From assembly GCA_913061265.1 (NCBI GenBank), contig CAJXVS010000006.1, positions 124,001 to 188,000 on the forward strand: a stretch of DNA of 64,000 bases. The letters are read 5' to 3'. A program made the translations under genes and the position numbers. Below are positions 4,912-57,835 of this stretch, piece by piece (the stretch's first letter is position 1; every line of letters starts with the position of its first letter). This DNA is from an uncultured Halobacteriovorax sp. Lineage in GTDB: Bacteria; Bdellovibrionota; Bacteriovoracia; Bacteriovoracales; Bacteriovoracaceae. The notes under the pieces were generated by a model. That model saw nothing but the letters and a program-made list of their open reading frames with translations, was not told the DNA's origin and made no database searches.

Positions 4912-4986
4912 TTAAGCGACTGTGATCAATGCGATATAAAAGATAAACAAACAAAACAAAATGGTATCCTTGCCGTCGTTGTTCAT
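4912..4986 (-). CDS. 24-residue predicted membrane microprotein (third ORF of a coupled chain)
   Basis: ATG 4986 lies in ATGA overlapping the TGA of the preceding 57-codon ORF, with AAGGA six bases upstream. The product has a polar N-terminus MNNDGKDT and then one hydrophobic stretch long enough to span a membrane, ending in TVA. Single-helix proteins of this size act as subunits or inhibitors of larger membrane complexes in other bacteria; no such partner is visible here. The support is the stacked ATGA overlaps, the ribosome site and the hydrophobic composition. I recognise no homologue. Confidence 0.5.
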   Translation of the reverse strand: MNNDGKDTILFCLFIFYIALITVA

Positions 4987-5156
4987 GACCTATCCTTTTT
5001 TAAAAAACTAAAAGTAAAAACCCTGTCAAAAAAATCCAGAGCCCCTGTATGAGAAAGAAAGCTTGTAGGTCTTCTTGGTGGAAGGAAACTCCTATCTACC
5101 AACCAAGTCTTACTGAAAAATTCAGTATGGCTGCTTCTGTAATCCCTTGAGTTCAT
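4983..5156 (-). CDS. 57-residue hypothetical protein (second ORF of a coupled chain)
   Basis: I set the start at ATG 5156, which overlaps the TGA stop of the preceding ORF (ATGA) and has GGAGG five bases upstream; an in-frame ATG ten codons earlier lacks this. The product is basic and aromatic, with FLPPRRPTSF in the middle and a hydrophobic-aromatic C-terminal part (DFFDRVFTFSFLKK). The stop TGA again overlaps the next ATG. I recognise no family. Three consecutive ATGA/ribosome-site junctions by chance are unlikely. Confidence 0.45.
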   Translation of the reverse strand: MNSRDYRSSHTEFFSKTWLVDRSFLPPRRPTSFLSHTGALDFFDRVFTFSFLKKDRS

Positions 5157-5374
5157 CCTTTCCTCCCATGTAAAAGAGAGAGGCATATCTCTCTTTTTCT
5201 GTATCTTTCTCTATCGCTGCTTGAGCGAGCAAAGCGAGAAGGATTTAACGTCCACCTCCGTCCAAGAGGGAACCGGGACGAAGGTCCTCCCTCTCGCTCT
5301 GCCGTTTCAAAAGTATTGTCCAAAGAGGTAGTCCCTTCAGTGATTAAAAAATGTGTAACTAGTAGTGCCGCCAT
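5153..5374 (-). CDS. 73-residue hypothetical protein (first ORF of a coupled chain)
   Basis: ATG 5374 is preceded by GGGGAG with an eight-base spacer and by a TATACT -10 at 5396-5401. The phased TTGCGTAAGT repeats lie directly upstream. The product starts MAALLVTHFLITEG and then becomes Arg/Ser-rich and low in obvious fold signals, so it could be a leader peptide as well as a functional protein. It ends in TGA overlapping the next start. No homologue is recognised. Confidence 0.4.
   Translation of the reverse strand: MAALLVTHFLITEGTTSLDNTFETAEREGGPSSRFPLGRRWTLNPSRFARSSSDRERYRKREICLSLLHGRKG
5172..5199. terminator. Perfect hairpin with T-run on the plus strand
   Basis: AAAAGAGAG (5172-5180) pairs with CTCTCTTTT (5189-5197) across an eight-base loop and is followed by T on the plus strand. 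It looks like an intrinsic terminator for plus-strand transcription, yet it sits within the end of the 73-codon minus-strand ORF, just before the next ribosome site. It may instead modulate translation there. Confidence 0.35.
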
Positions 5375-5401: not shown

Positions 5402-5455
5402 TTACGTAAGTTTTGCGTAAGTGCAACAGCTTTTTGCGTACCTTTTGCGTAAGTA
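5402..5455. promoter_or_regulatory. Four phased direct repeats of TTGCGTAAGT
   Basis: Eleven-base units lie at 5402-5412, 5413-5423, 5434-5444 and 5445-5455 (consensus TTGCGTAAGTN), with start spacings of 11, 21 and 11 bases, close to helical turns. They lie immediately upstream of the -10 of the minus-strand micro-ORF chain and about 50 bases upstream of the plus-strand hydrolase. The same ten bases occur as an inverted pair around the uvrA promoter at 54038-54071. A shared regulator is inferred. Confidence 0.6.
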
Positions 5456-53914: not shown

Positions 53915-54037
53915 TTCGACCTCACTTAGTTTATTTTCTCTATAGTACAAATCTGGTTAAAATGATGAACAGTGAGCTTCTGACTTTCTGACAAATGGCC
54001 TCAATTCTCCCCTAGTCCTTACTTATGCCCATCCTAG

Positions 54038-54071
54038 ACTTACGCAAAGCTTGCTATAAATATGCGTAAGT
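54038..54071 (+). promoter_or_regulatory. uvrA promoter bracketed by inverted TTGCGTAAGT motifs
   Basis: ACTTACGCAA (54038-54047) and ATGCGTAAGT (54062-54071) form inverted half-sites whose centres are 24 bases apart. Between them lies an extended -10, TGCTATAAA (54052-54060). A protein bound to both sites would cover the promoter, as expected for a repressor. uvrA is a classic SOS gene in many bacteria, so a LexA-type operator is possible; the sequence differs from the TTACN3GTAA box known for Bdellovibrio LexA. Confidence 0.6.
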
Positions 54072-54112: not shown

Positions 54113-56992
54113 GTGAAAGCTACCAATACTAAAAAGAGTAAAGTTAAAGAAATAAGCAGCATCCAAGTCATAGGTGCAAGAGAGCATAATTTAAAGAATA
54201 TTGACGTGGAGATCCCTAAGAAAAAACTTGTGGTGATCACCGGAGTTTCTGGTTCTGGAAAATCCTCTTTAGCTTTTGATACCATCTATGCTGAAGGTCA
54301 AAGACGCTATGTAGAGTCTCTCTCCTCGTATGCCCGTCAATTTCTCGGGCAAATGGAAAAGCCCAAATTTGATACCATCAGAGGACTGGCTCCCACTATT
54401 GCGATTGAACAAAAGTCAGCCTCAAAGAACCCTCGCTCCACTGTAGGAACCATAACAGAGATCTATGATTATCTAAGAGTTCTCTTCGCCCGTGTAGGAA
54501 CTCAGTACTGTCATATTTGTTCTAAAGAAGTAGGAAAAGGCACCGCTCAAAATATGGTGGAGCAGATCCTAAAGCTTCCTCAGGAAACTAAATTCTTATT
54601 AATGGCGCCTTTAGTTGAAAATCGAAAGGGTGAATTTAAGGACCTCTTAAAACAAATCAAGGCCGATGGTTTCTCGAGAGTGAGAATCGACGGAGTGGTT
54701 CAGCAGATTGGTGATATTCAATCTCTTGCTAAGAATAAAAAGCATAATCTTGAAGTGGTCGTAGATCGTTTAAAAGTAAAGAAAGAGCCCGCCTTTAAGA
54801 AAAGGCTCTTAGATAGTTTAGAGCTTTGTCTTAAAACCGGCGAAGGCCAGCTTATTGTTCATATTGAAAATCGTGAAGACATTAAAATGAGTGAAGAGCG
54901 CTCTTGCTGTGGTCATGCCTTCCCTGAATTAATCCCTCAGCTCTTTAGCTTTAACTCCCCTCACGGCATGTGCGAAAAATGTAATGGTATCGGCTCTGTT
55001 ATTTCTATCGATGAGAAGAAGCTAGTCGTAGACGAAAACGCCTCTATTTCCATGGGAGCTGTTCGCGCTTGGGATAATTACTTTGATAAAGAGGGAAATA
55101 AAAAGGACATGTCATGGGGACTCGCGCGCCTAAATGCTCTTGAAGCGGACTGGGGGCTAGATCTCTATAAACCATGGAAGAAGATCCCTAAGAAATTAAG
55201 AGAGAGAGTTCTTAATGGAAGTGATGATCCTAAGCATGAATTAAACCTCGTTTGGGAAGGAGATAAGGGCGAATATCAATGGAACGCTCAGTATGAAGGA
55301 CTGATCACCCGCCTTATGCGTCTTTATATGAAACATCAAACCCAAGGGCGAAAGTCATGGGTGGCCAAGTACACCTCAACTCTTCCTTGTGATACTTGTC
55401 AGGGTCAAAGACTAAAGCCTTCTGTTAATTCAATTCTGGTTAAGAAAAAATCAATCAATGATATAACCGCTATGAGCATCTCTGAATCCTTTAACTTCTT
55501 TAGTAAGTTAAAGCTTACGGGAAATAAAAAGATCATCACAGAAGAGCTCTTAAAAGAGATCACAACCAGGCTTGGCTTTCTTGTCAACGTGGGTCTTAAT
55601 TACTTATCTATGGATAGATCAGGGCCCACCCTCTCTGGAGGAGAGGCGCAAAGAATCAGGCTCGCCTCTCAGATTGGATCTGAACTAACAGGTGTTCTCT
55701 ATATTCTCGACGAGCCTAGCATCGGTCTTCACCAACGAGATAATATAAAACTCATCGATACCCTCTGCCATCTGCGAGATATTGGAAACTCTTTAATCGT
55801 CGTTGAGCATGATCAAGAAACCATGGAATCCGCGGATTGGATCTTAGACGTAGGTCCTGGCGCCGGCCGCCTAGGTGGTCAGATCATCGCCGAAGGAACT
55901 CCCGCTCAGTTAAAGAAAAACAAAAGATCTATCACAGGAAAATTCCTCGCGGGAAAAGAGCAAATTGAAATCCCAGAGGAGAGAAGAACCTCTTCAAAAG
56001 AGTGGATTGAAATCCTAGGAGCAAAAGCTAATAACCTTAAGAATGTTGATTGCAAGATCCCTATCGGATTATTCACTTGTGTCAGTGGTGTTTCTGGAGC
56101 GGGAAAATCCTCCCTCATCAATCAGATCTTATACCCAGCTCTTAGTAAGATGCTTCATAACACCGACATAGAAGTTGGCGAGCATAAAGAAATTAAGGGA
56201 CTCGCCAATATTGATAAGGTTATCAATATTGATCAAAAGCCCATTGGGAAAACCCCTAGAAGTAACCCTGCCACTTACACAAAGGTCTTTGATCTTATCA
56301 GAGACCTCTTCGCTATGACCCCTGAATCAAAAAGCCTCGGCTATAAAAAAGGACGATTTTCCTTTAACGTTAAAGGTGGTCGCTGCGAGGCCTGTGAAGG
56401 TGACGGACATATAAAAGTAGAGATGCATTTTCTAGCTGACGTTTTAGTTCCCTGCGAGGAGTGTAAAACAAAACGCTTTAACGAGGGAACTCTTCGCATT
56501 AAATTCAAGGATCACTCTATCGCCGACGTTCTCGATCTTTCAGTTGAACAAGCCAGAGTGCTTTTTGAAAACCAACCACAGATAAAAAAAGTCCTTGATA
56601 CTTTAATTGAAGTTGGCCTTGATTATATAAAGTTAGGTCAACCCGCCACTCACCTCTCTGGTGGAGAAGCGCAAAGAATCAAGCTAGCAAAAGAGCTCTC
56701 AAAAAGAGGAACCGGAAAGACCCTCTATATTCTAGATGAGCCAACTACTGGTCTTCACTTTCAAGATATAAGAAAACTCCTTGCCGTGCTTCAAAAGCTC
56801 ACAGATGCAGGAAATACTATTGTCGTCATCGAACATAACCTAGATGTAGTTAAGACCGCAGATTGGGTCATCGATCTAGGCCCTGAAGGTGGCTCTGGTG
56901 GTGGAGTCATCATCGCCAGTGGACCTCCAGAAAAGGTGGCATCGAGCAAGAAGAGCCCTACAGGGGCCTATTTGAAAGATATCTTAAAATAA
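54113..56992 (+). CDS. uvrA: UvrABC excinuclease ATPase subunit UvrA
   Basis: 959 residues from GTG 54113. First Walker A GVSGSGKSSLAF near 40, zinc module 1 (CCGHAFPELIPQLF...CEKCNG), first signature LSGGEAQRI near 507, second Walker A GVSGAGKSS near 658, zinc module 2 (CEACEGDG...CEECK), second signature LSGGEAQRIKLAKELS near 847 and LYILDEPTTGLHF. All ATPase and damage-sensor elements are intact. Acts in nucleotide excision repair with UvrB and UvrC. Promoter region carries a shared motif (54038-54071). Confidence 0.99.
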   Translation: MKATNTKKSKVKEISSIQVIGAREHNLKNIDVEIPKKKLVVITGVSGSGKSSLAFDTIYAEGQRRYVESLSSYARQFLGQMEKPKFDTIRGLAPTIAIEQKSASKNPRSTVGTITEIYDYLRVLFARVGTQYCHICSKEVGKGTAQNMVEQILKLPQETKFLLMAPLVENRKGEFKDLLKQIKADGFSRVRIDGVVQQIGDIQSLAKNKKHNLEVVVDRLKVKKEPAFKKRLLDSLELCLKTGEGQLIVHIENREDIKMSEERSCCGHAFPELIPQLFSFNSPHGMCEKCNGIGSVISIDEKKLVVDENASISMGAVRAWDNYFDKEGNKKDMSWGLARLNALEADWGLDLYKPWKKIPKKLRERVLNGSDDPKHELNLVWEGDKGEYQWNAQYEGLITRLMRLYMKHQTQGRKSWVAKYTSTLPCDTCQGQRLKPSVNSILVKKKSINDITAMSISESFNFFSKLKLTGNKKIITEELLKEITTRLGFLVNVGLNYLSMDRSGPTLSGGEAQRIRLASQIGSELTGVLYILDEPSIGLHQRDNIKLIDTLCHLRDIGNSLIVVEHDQETMESADWILDVGPGAGRLGGQIIAEGTPAQLKKNKRSITGKFLAGKEQIEIPEERRTSSKEWIEILGAKANNLKNVDCKIPIGLFTCVSGVSGAGKSSLINQILYPALSKMLHNTDIEVGEHKEIKGLANIDKVINIDQKPIGKTPRSNPATYTKVFDLIRDLFAMTPESKSLGYKKGRFSFNVKGGRCEACEGDGHIKVEMHFLADVLVPCEECKTKRFNEGTLRIKFKDHSIADVLDLSVEQARVLFENQPQIKKVLDTLIEVGLDYIKLGQPATHLSGGEAQRIKLAKELSKRGTGKTLYILDEPTTGLHFQDIRKLLAVLQKLTDAGNTIVVIEHNLDVVKTADWVIDLGPEGGSGGGVIIASGPPEKVASSKKSPTGAYLKDILK

Positions 56993-57053: not shown

Positions 57054-57392
57054 ATGTCAAAAAAGAGCAATTTAAACAAAAGCCTACTTATTACAGCGGC
57101 CCTTTTAGGCCTATCTGCGGCAAACGCCAGCGATAGTAAGAAAACCGTCATCAAAGAAAAGAAGGCCTCGAGCTTTCCAAAGTCAGTAAGCAGACCAGTT
57201 CCTGGAGAGATCATTGTAAAATGCGCCGGGATAGCTAAGAAAGGTCAGAATCACTGCGGTGCCAATGGGCATACTTGTGGCGGTAAGGCTAAGGTAGACT
57301 TTGATAAAAACGAATGGGTTTATGTTCGTAAAGACGTATGCGACGTGACTCCTGGTAAGATTGTAGGAAAGAAACGCGTGATCAAAGGCTAG
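57054..57392 (+). CDS. Bufferin-like (DUF2282, BufA1-type) secreted precursor peptide
   Basis: 112 residues with signal peptide (about 1-26). The mature part has four cysteines, Cys57, 68, 75 and 96, in [27 protein letters not shown]...[10 protein letters not shown], matching the DUF2282 pattern K-C-x-G-x-A-x-A-G-x-N-x-C...H-x-C-x-G...C. BufA1-type bufferins are modified by an MNIO (DUF692) enzyme and sequester copper. Neither bufB nor bufC is next to it. Instead an ECF sigma factor and anti-sigma gene follow by six bases. GGAG precedes ATG. Confidence 0.85.
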
Positions 57393-57397
57393 AATAA

Positions 57398-57835
57398 TTG
57401 TTAAATAAAAGCGACCTGAACAAACTCTATAGATACGCCCTCGTCCTCACTAATCAGGACGAGGAAGCCTATGATTTAGTTCATAGCGCTATCTTAAAGA
57501 TTGAAGGCCGTTTTATTTTAAAAGAGTTGGCCTACGCAAAAACTGTTGTTCGCCATCTCTTTTTTGATCATAAAAAAAAAGAGGCCGCATCAGAGGAGTT
57601 AGTCCCTGATGCCATGTCCATTGATCAAAGCTTTGAAGAGATCATCATACATAAAGATGAAGTCGAAGCGCTCCTAAAAGAACTAAAGCCCCTTGAACGA
57701 GAGCTCTTGTTCTTAATCATTGTGGAAGGTCACTCTTACAAAGAAGCCTCCAAGATTACTGGTGAGAAGATCAATACATTACTGACAAGATTCAAAAGAA
57801 TCAAAGATAAGCTTCGATCAAGGATTAAACAGTGA
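57398..57835 (+). CDS. ECF-type sigma factor
   Basis: 145 residues from TTG 57398, six bases after the bufferin-like gene. Region 2 is DLNKLYRYALVLTNQDEEAYDLVHSAILKI..., and region 4 is ALLKELKPLERELLFLIIVEGHSYKEASKITGEKINTLLTRFKRIKDKLR. Region 2 is short. Overlaps the anti-sigma gene by four bases. It probably drives this operon, including the bufferin gene, in response to a signal sensed by its partner. Confidence 0.88.
   Translation: MLNKSDLNKLYRYALVLTNQDEEAYDLVHSAILKIEGRFILKELAYAKTVVRHLFFDHKKKEAASEELVPDAMSIDQSFEEIIIHKDEVEALLKELKPLERELLFLIIVEGHSYKEASKITGEKINTLLTRFKRIKDKLRSRIKQ

Follow-up and report, generated by a model that had tools for sequence, protein, structure and literature searches.

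The promoter region of uvrA in the window, the whole 64,000-nucleotide stretch of Halobacteriovorax sp. DNA analysed here, carries two copies of a sequence that are very probably half-sites at which LexA binds a lineage-specific SOS operator. Across the family this operator usually takes the form of a direct repeat, CTTACGCA-N3-CTTACGC (TTAC-N7-TTAC, with an 11-bp period), located in the spacer between the -35 and -10 elements. The same element is found at lexA and recA of this genome and in relatives, which supports the proposal of a lineage-specific SOS operator made in an earlier note on this DNA. That note had taken inverted sites to be the form of the operator; the rule proves to be the direct repeat, with uvrA, where the sites are inverted, as an exception to it.

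The probable direct-repeat operator and its predicted targets

The genome (3.97 Mb in 12 contigs) has one clear lexA (contig C5) and one recA (contig C3). The lexA promoter, AACATACGCATAAGTTACGCATTTAGTTCTTGACTTACGCATCGACTACGCATTAAAT, contains four TACGCA copies at periods of 11, 20, and 11, slightly looser than CTTACGCA; the recA promoter also contains four copies, GCGTAAG at periods of 21 and 17, followed by GCGCAAG at 11 (periods for both promoters were counted by hand). The element is therefore present in lexA's own promoter, as is characteristic of an autoregulated repressor, and in the recA promoter, as it is at 27 recA loci in relatives. By the earlier note, a different motif at these two promoters would have spoken against its proposal; both contain the same one.

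Single half-sites are uncommon in the genome, and close pairs are rare. The CTTACGCA core occurs in only 53 genomic copies versus 31 for the reversed control, and exact TTGCGTAAGT occurs seven times, once upstream of recA. TTGCGTAAGT alone was rejected as an operator; two of the seven exact matches (on contig C8) are unpaired and away from a recognised promoter, one of them inside a long open reading frame. Close CTTACGCA pairs are found at only four genomic places, all of them promoters: recA, C4:81683 (micro-ORF), window positions 5414/5446 (micro-ORF chain), and uvrA; the number of pairs within 35 bp expected genome-wide is about 0.02. When CTTACGCA-N3-CTTACGCA was searched for with up to three mismatches, seven places had zero to two (C4:81683, C1:421530, recA, two in window 5403-5453, and two at lexA), and all remaining matches had three mismatches and were at control level. 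The target at C1:421530 had no match in Pfam or NCBIfam and is for that reason labelled only ImuA-like, from reading of its sequence.

A search of 59 family genomes for CTTACGCANNNCTTACGC with at most one mismatch yields 97 sites, versus 4 for the reversed pattern. Eighty of these 97 loci were read, and 67 of the 80 precede recA (27), lexA (21, of which 18 were located by ORF search and three by tblastn), umuDC (15), an ImuA-like gene (3), or uvrA (1). The umuDC-type loci encode a Y-family polymerase (Pfam IMS, IMS_C, and DUF4113) preceded by an S24 protein; at several of them a gene for SRAP (SOS-associated peptidase) is divergently oriented. The promoters of lexA, recA, umuDC, and the micro-ORFs have half-sites in head-to-tail orientation with an 11-bp period. 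At the majority of recA and lexA loci, the first bases of the repeat lie inside TTGACT and the rest fills the spacer as far as the -10 element, a placement suited to blocking RNA polymerase; at uvrA the equivalent placement is deduced from the extended -10.

Conservation of the element extends beyond the exact motif. All 13 near-relative lexA promoters (L037-L049) have TACGCA-type half-sites in or beside the TTGACT...-10 interval, and such half-sites were not found at the unrelated LexA loci L050-L052. Family genomes without the exact motif mostly retain the 11-bp direct repeat at lexA, as TACGGA or TACGTA, and half-sites in other families of the phylum are TTACGCA or TTACACA. Two lexA upstream regions from other families in the phylum (L248 of G034 and L255 of G032) have a palindrome, CCATACA(A/T)TTGTATGG, and no direct repeat; this is a further operator type.

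A position-weight matrix built from the relatives' operators was used to scan both strands of the window. The top four matches are at 5403-5421 (score 28.3), 5435-5453 (24.0), 54039-54057 (10.9), and 54052-54070 (7.4), and the next match scores 6.0. The first two are direct-repeat operators on the reverse strand, the canonical CTTACGCAAAACTTACGTA (5403-5421) and, 32 bp upstream of it, CTTACGCAAAAGGTACGCA (5435-5453). Both point leftward into a chain of three micro-ORFs, also on the reverse strand and joined by ATGA overlaps: A (5153-5374; 73 aa, ATG start), which has a homologous 84-aa ORF in G001 and G002; B (4983-5156; 57 aa), which overlaps the stop of A; and C (4912-4986), which encodes a 24-aa hydrophobic peptide, MNNDGKDTILFCLFIFYIALITVA. 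Both operators and all three micro-ORFs are kept in these two same-genus relatives. The earlier note's view that the uvrA operator is shared with the micro-ORF chain is supported: the two operators ahead of the chain are the strongest of the window.

Between the window and G001, changes in micro-ORF C by codon position are 2/0/13, with 11 synonymous and 3 non-synonymous codon changes; judged by this codon pattern, the 24-aa peptide is under purifying selection. TisB and SidA are small SOS-induced membrane peptides, which the predicted product of micro-ORF C resembles in kind. In the last part of micro-ORF A, immediately ahead of the ribosome site of B, is a hairpin, AAAAGAGAGATATGCCTCTCTCTTTT (window 5172-5198), which is kept in G001 and G002; its fold z-score is only -1.0, and it could be an attenuator or a translation control element. 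Elsewhere in the genome, a perfect canonical operator, TTGACTTACGCACGACTTACGCAAATAAT, precedes a short, conserved, leader-like ORF (MEVTMHTG...) at L014:1497-1707 (G000:C4:81683) and is also found in G001 and G002; the product of this locus may be an RNA, since the reading frame drifts among relatives.

An exceptional arrangement at uvrA

The window's uvrA (54113-56992, forward strand, GTG start as listed) encodes excinuclease ABC subunit A, identified by Pfam (UvrA_inter and UvrA_DNA-bind) and by the NCBIfam UvrA equivalog (1409 bits). Downstream of it, window 57054-57832 (forward strand) encodes a DUF2282 protein and an ECF sigma-like factor. The half-sites lie 66 to 42 bases ahead of the listed GTG start. 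Half-site 1, ACTTACGCAA (54038-54047, forward strand), has its CTTACGCA core at 54039-54046, one of the 53 exact cores in the genome; half-site 2, ATGCGTAAGT (54062-54071, reverse strand), is inverted and has its core at 54063-54070. The two bracket an extended -10-like TGC-TATAAA (54052-54060, forward strand), just as the earlier note had described. A simple promoter scan called no sigma-70 promoter at uvrA, so the reading of a promoter here rests on the extended -10 and its position; comparison of contexts also suggests a -35-like TAGACT (54035-54040, forward strand) at the position occupied by TTGACT in canonical operators.

The sequence upstream of uvrA, TAGACTTACGCAAAGCTTGCTATAAATATGCGTAAG, includes the intact half-site 1, then CTTGCTAT (54050-54057, forward strand) in the 11-bp register of the canonical operator, and then the perfect inverted half-site. 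CTTGCTAT is a degenerate direct partner, apparently a decayed half-site; only one half-site is good in the direct register, and the canonical geometry is absent from this promoter. The spacing of the inverted pair is TTAC-N23-GTAA, with 24 bp between the core starts. The uvrA orthologue of G018 (65% identity) has the canonical direct repeat, TTGACTTACGCATTACTTACGCATAATAT, with an intact CTTACGCA where the window has CTTGCTAT (registers were compared by eye on the operator itself). The window's uvrA site is probably a rearranged LexA operator, a conclusion that we hold less firmly than the corresponding one for lexA and recA; counted against it is the best direct-repeat score at uvrA, 10.9, versus 24-28 for the micro-ORF operators.

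The left half-site and its degenerate direct partner (54039-54057) might by themselves constitute a weak LexA operator, with the inverted copy incidental. The left half lines up, in register, with the canonical operator upstream of uvrA in G018, and extra inverted cores near operators are rare, being found at only 3 of the 79 operators of relatives that were read, at +27 or -18; none of the 79 matches the 24-bp inverted distance of uvrA exactly, and the nearest case is +27, at two loci. However, the probability that a second exact core falls within 40 bp of the first by chance is about 0.001, and the inverted core spans the -10/+1 region, a place at which a repressor would be expected to work. 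We consider an incidental inverted copy unlikely, and a rearranged operator that includes both exact half-sites is preferred. Inverted geometry as a general rule was rejected, because CTTACGCAA-N4-16-TGCGTAAG is found genome-wide only at uvrA.

The distribution of the motif among uvrA genes bears on whether the pair is meaningful at all. The genome has a second full-length uvrA (G000:C3:411693-414467; 50% identical to the window's uvrA); no half-site was found upstream of it, and SOS control of this copy was rejected. Two uvrA copies are also present in G018 and G023. The motif was not found upstream of the G023 orthologue or of the remaining family copies, leaving G018 as the only other carrier; a uvrA operator conserved family-wide was accordingly rejected, and SOS control of uvrA, where predicted, is patchy. 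The lack of an upstream motif at most of the family's uvrA genes, and at the second copy in this genome, would also suit a chance match, in which the window's uvrA is constitutive and only the sites at lexA, recA, and the other canonical loci are real. This is very improbable, given how few pairs of this kind would be expected genome-wide and that the one found precedes a repair gene whose orthologue has a canonical operator.

LexA as the predicted reader of the half-site

The genome encodes a cleavable LexA, judging from sequence: the protein matches the TIGR00498 equivalog at 170.5 bits (cut-off 110.95), and its Ala-Gly cleavage site and catalytic Ser and Lys align with those of E. coli LexA. 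Its closest named relatives are from Halobacteriovorax MAGs (81-82% identity). E. coli LexA contacts bases through residues 41 and 45, and the corresponding residues (E. coli numbering, assigned by alignment) covary with the operator among the genomes compared. Where residue 41 is Gly, operator base 5 is G in 83 of 84 half-sites, and where it is Asn or Phe, base 5 is A in 28 of 30; where residue 45 is Asp, base 6 is G in 19 of 24, and where it is Arg, Lys, or Asn, base 6 is C in 81 of 90. Related sequences contribute to these figures; a tree built from the remainder of LexA has 2-4 independent switches at residue 41 and 1-2 at residue 45, which are nearly always concordant and too few for significance. 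The joint changes at two recognition-helix positions and two operator bases make LexA the likely reader of the half-site. Another damage-responsive regulator could have targets in common with LexA and own these sites instead, but the presence of the motif at lexA's own promoter throughout the family, and the way in which it follows the recognition helix of LexA, make such a regulator highly improbable.

With LexA as the reader, we infer the following mechanism of binding, repression, and induction. LexA, presumably as a dimer, would bind two head-to-tail CTTACGCA copies whose starts are 11 bp apart; at a typical promoter these half-sites would take up the 17 bp that separate -35 from -10, and bound LexA would thereby keep RNA polymerase off. 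Upon DNA damage, RecA filaments would form and LexA would cleave itself at the Ala-Gly bond, releasing recA, lexA, umuDC, the micro-ORF chain, and the window's uvrA. At this uvrA the second direct half-site appears to have decayed and a new perfect half-site to have arisen, inverted, across the -10/+1 region; with a decayed direct half and a perfect inverted half, LexA would probably hold the promoter through two separately anchored contacts.

Relation to known LexA boxes

To our knowledge, the only published LexA box of this phylum is the Bdellovibrio palindrome, and no description of a TTACGCA direct-repeat operator was found in the open-access papers searched. The E. coli LexA regulon includes recA, lexA, umuDC, and uvrA, which overlaps the predicted targets here, and the LexA orthologues have the same cleavage and catalytic residues; in contrast, the E. 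coli box, CTGT-N8-ACAG, is a palindrome of another half-site, and the recognition helix here reads S39 F40 G41 S42 V43 Q44 R45 versus SPNAAEE in E. coli. In B. bacteriovorus, canonical SOS genes are reportedly not under LexA control, as the title of a 2005 paper by Campoy et al. has it; in the present lineage recA, umuDC, and, in some genomes, uvrA share the element of lexA, in contrast to such reports. The operator provides a searchable SOS element for Bacteriovoracaceae and many related families and points to small proteins predicted to be SOS-controlled. The natural series in which repressor and operator have changed together makes a candidate two-residue recognition code directly testable.

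The LexA box of Bdellovibrio bacteriovorus is described as the palindrome TTAC-N3-GTAA and that of Alphaproteobacteria as the direct repeat GTTC-N7-GTTC (PMC8565304, PMC3323433). The Bdellovibrio-type palindrome with its 3-base gap was found neither at uvrA, with TTAC-N23-GTAA, nor at lexA and recA, with direct repeats. Named relatives place the two lineages in the same phylum and the core half-site, TTAC, is identical, so the difference from the Bdellovibrio box that the earlier note had asserted holds for geometry and flanking bases and fails for the core; unlike the short palindrome, the element here is a direct repeat and is carried by recA, umuDC, and uvrA. The lexA promoters of family f6 (L267, L269, L270, and L272), which appears to be Bdellovibrio-like, contain TTACACTGTAA, fitting TTAC-N3-GTAA, as well as TTAC-N7-TTAC, and since both arrangements occur there the palindrome may represent a single pairing in a more extensive array.

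These comparisons can be joined into one reading, which we offer tentatively. TTAC-N7-TTAC may be ancestral as the LexA operator in much of the phylum (Bdellovibrionota, going by its named members), with bases 5 and 6 read by LexA residues 41 and 45; as the recognition helix changed, the half-sites (TTACGCA, TTACGGA, and TTACACA) would have drifted along with it at an unchanged geometry, the Bdellovibrio palindrome would represent one of the pairings in a mixed TTAC array, and the regulon would include a conserved small-protein chain ending in a 24-aa membrane-type peptide.

The alphaproteobacterial box is the closer parallel in form, being likewise a LexA-binding direct repeat with a 4-base core, a 7-base gap, and an 11-bp period; it differs in phylum and in its half-site, GTTC, versus (C)TTACGCA with an extra conserved GCA here. 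Direct-repeat LexA boxes being known in Alphaproteobacteria, the predicted operator is a variation on a known type: on sequence comparison, it is the core of the Bdellovibrio box set in the geometry of the alphaproteobacterial repeat.
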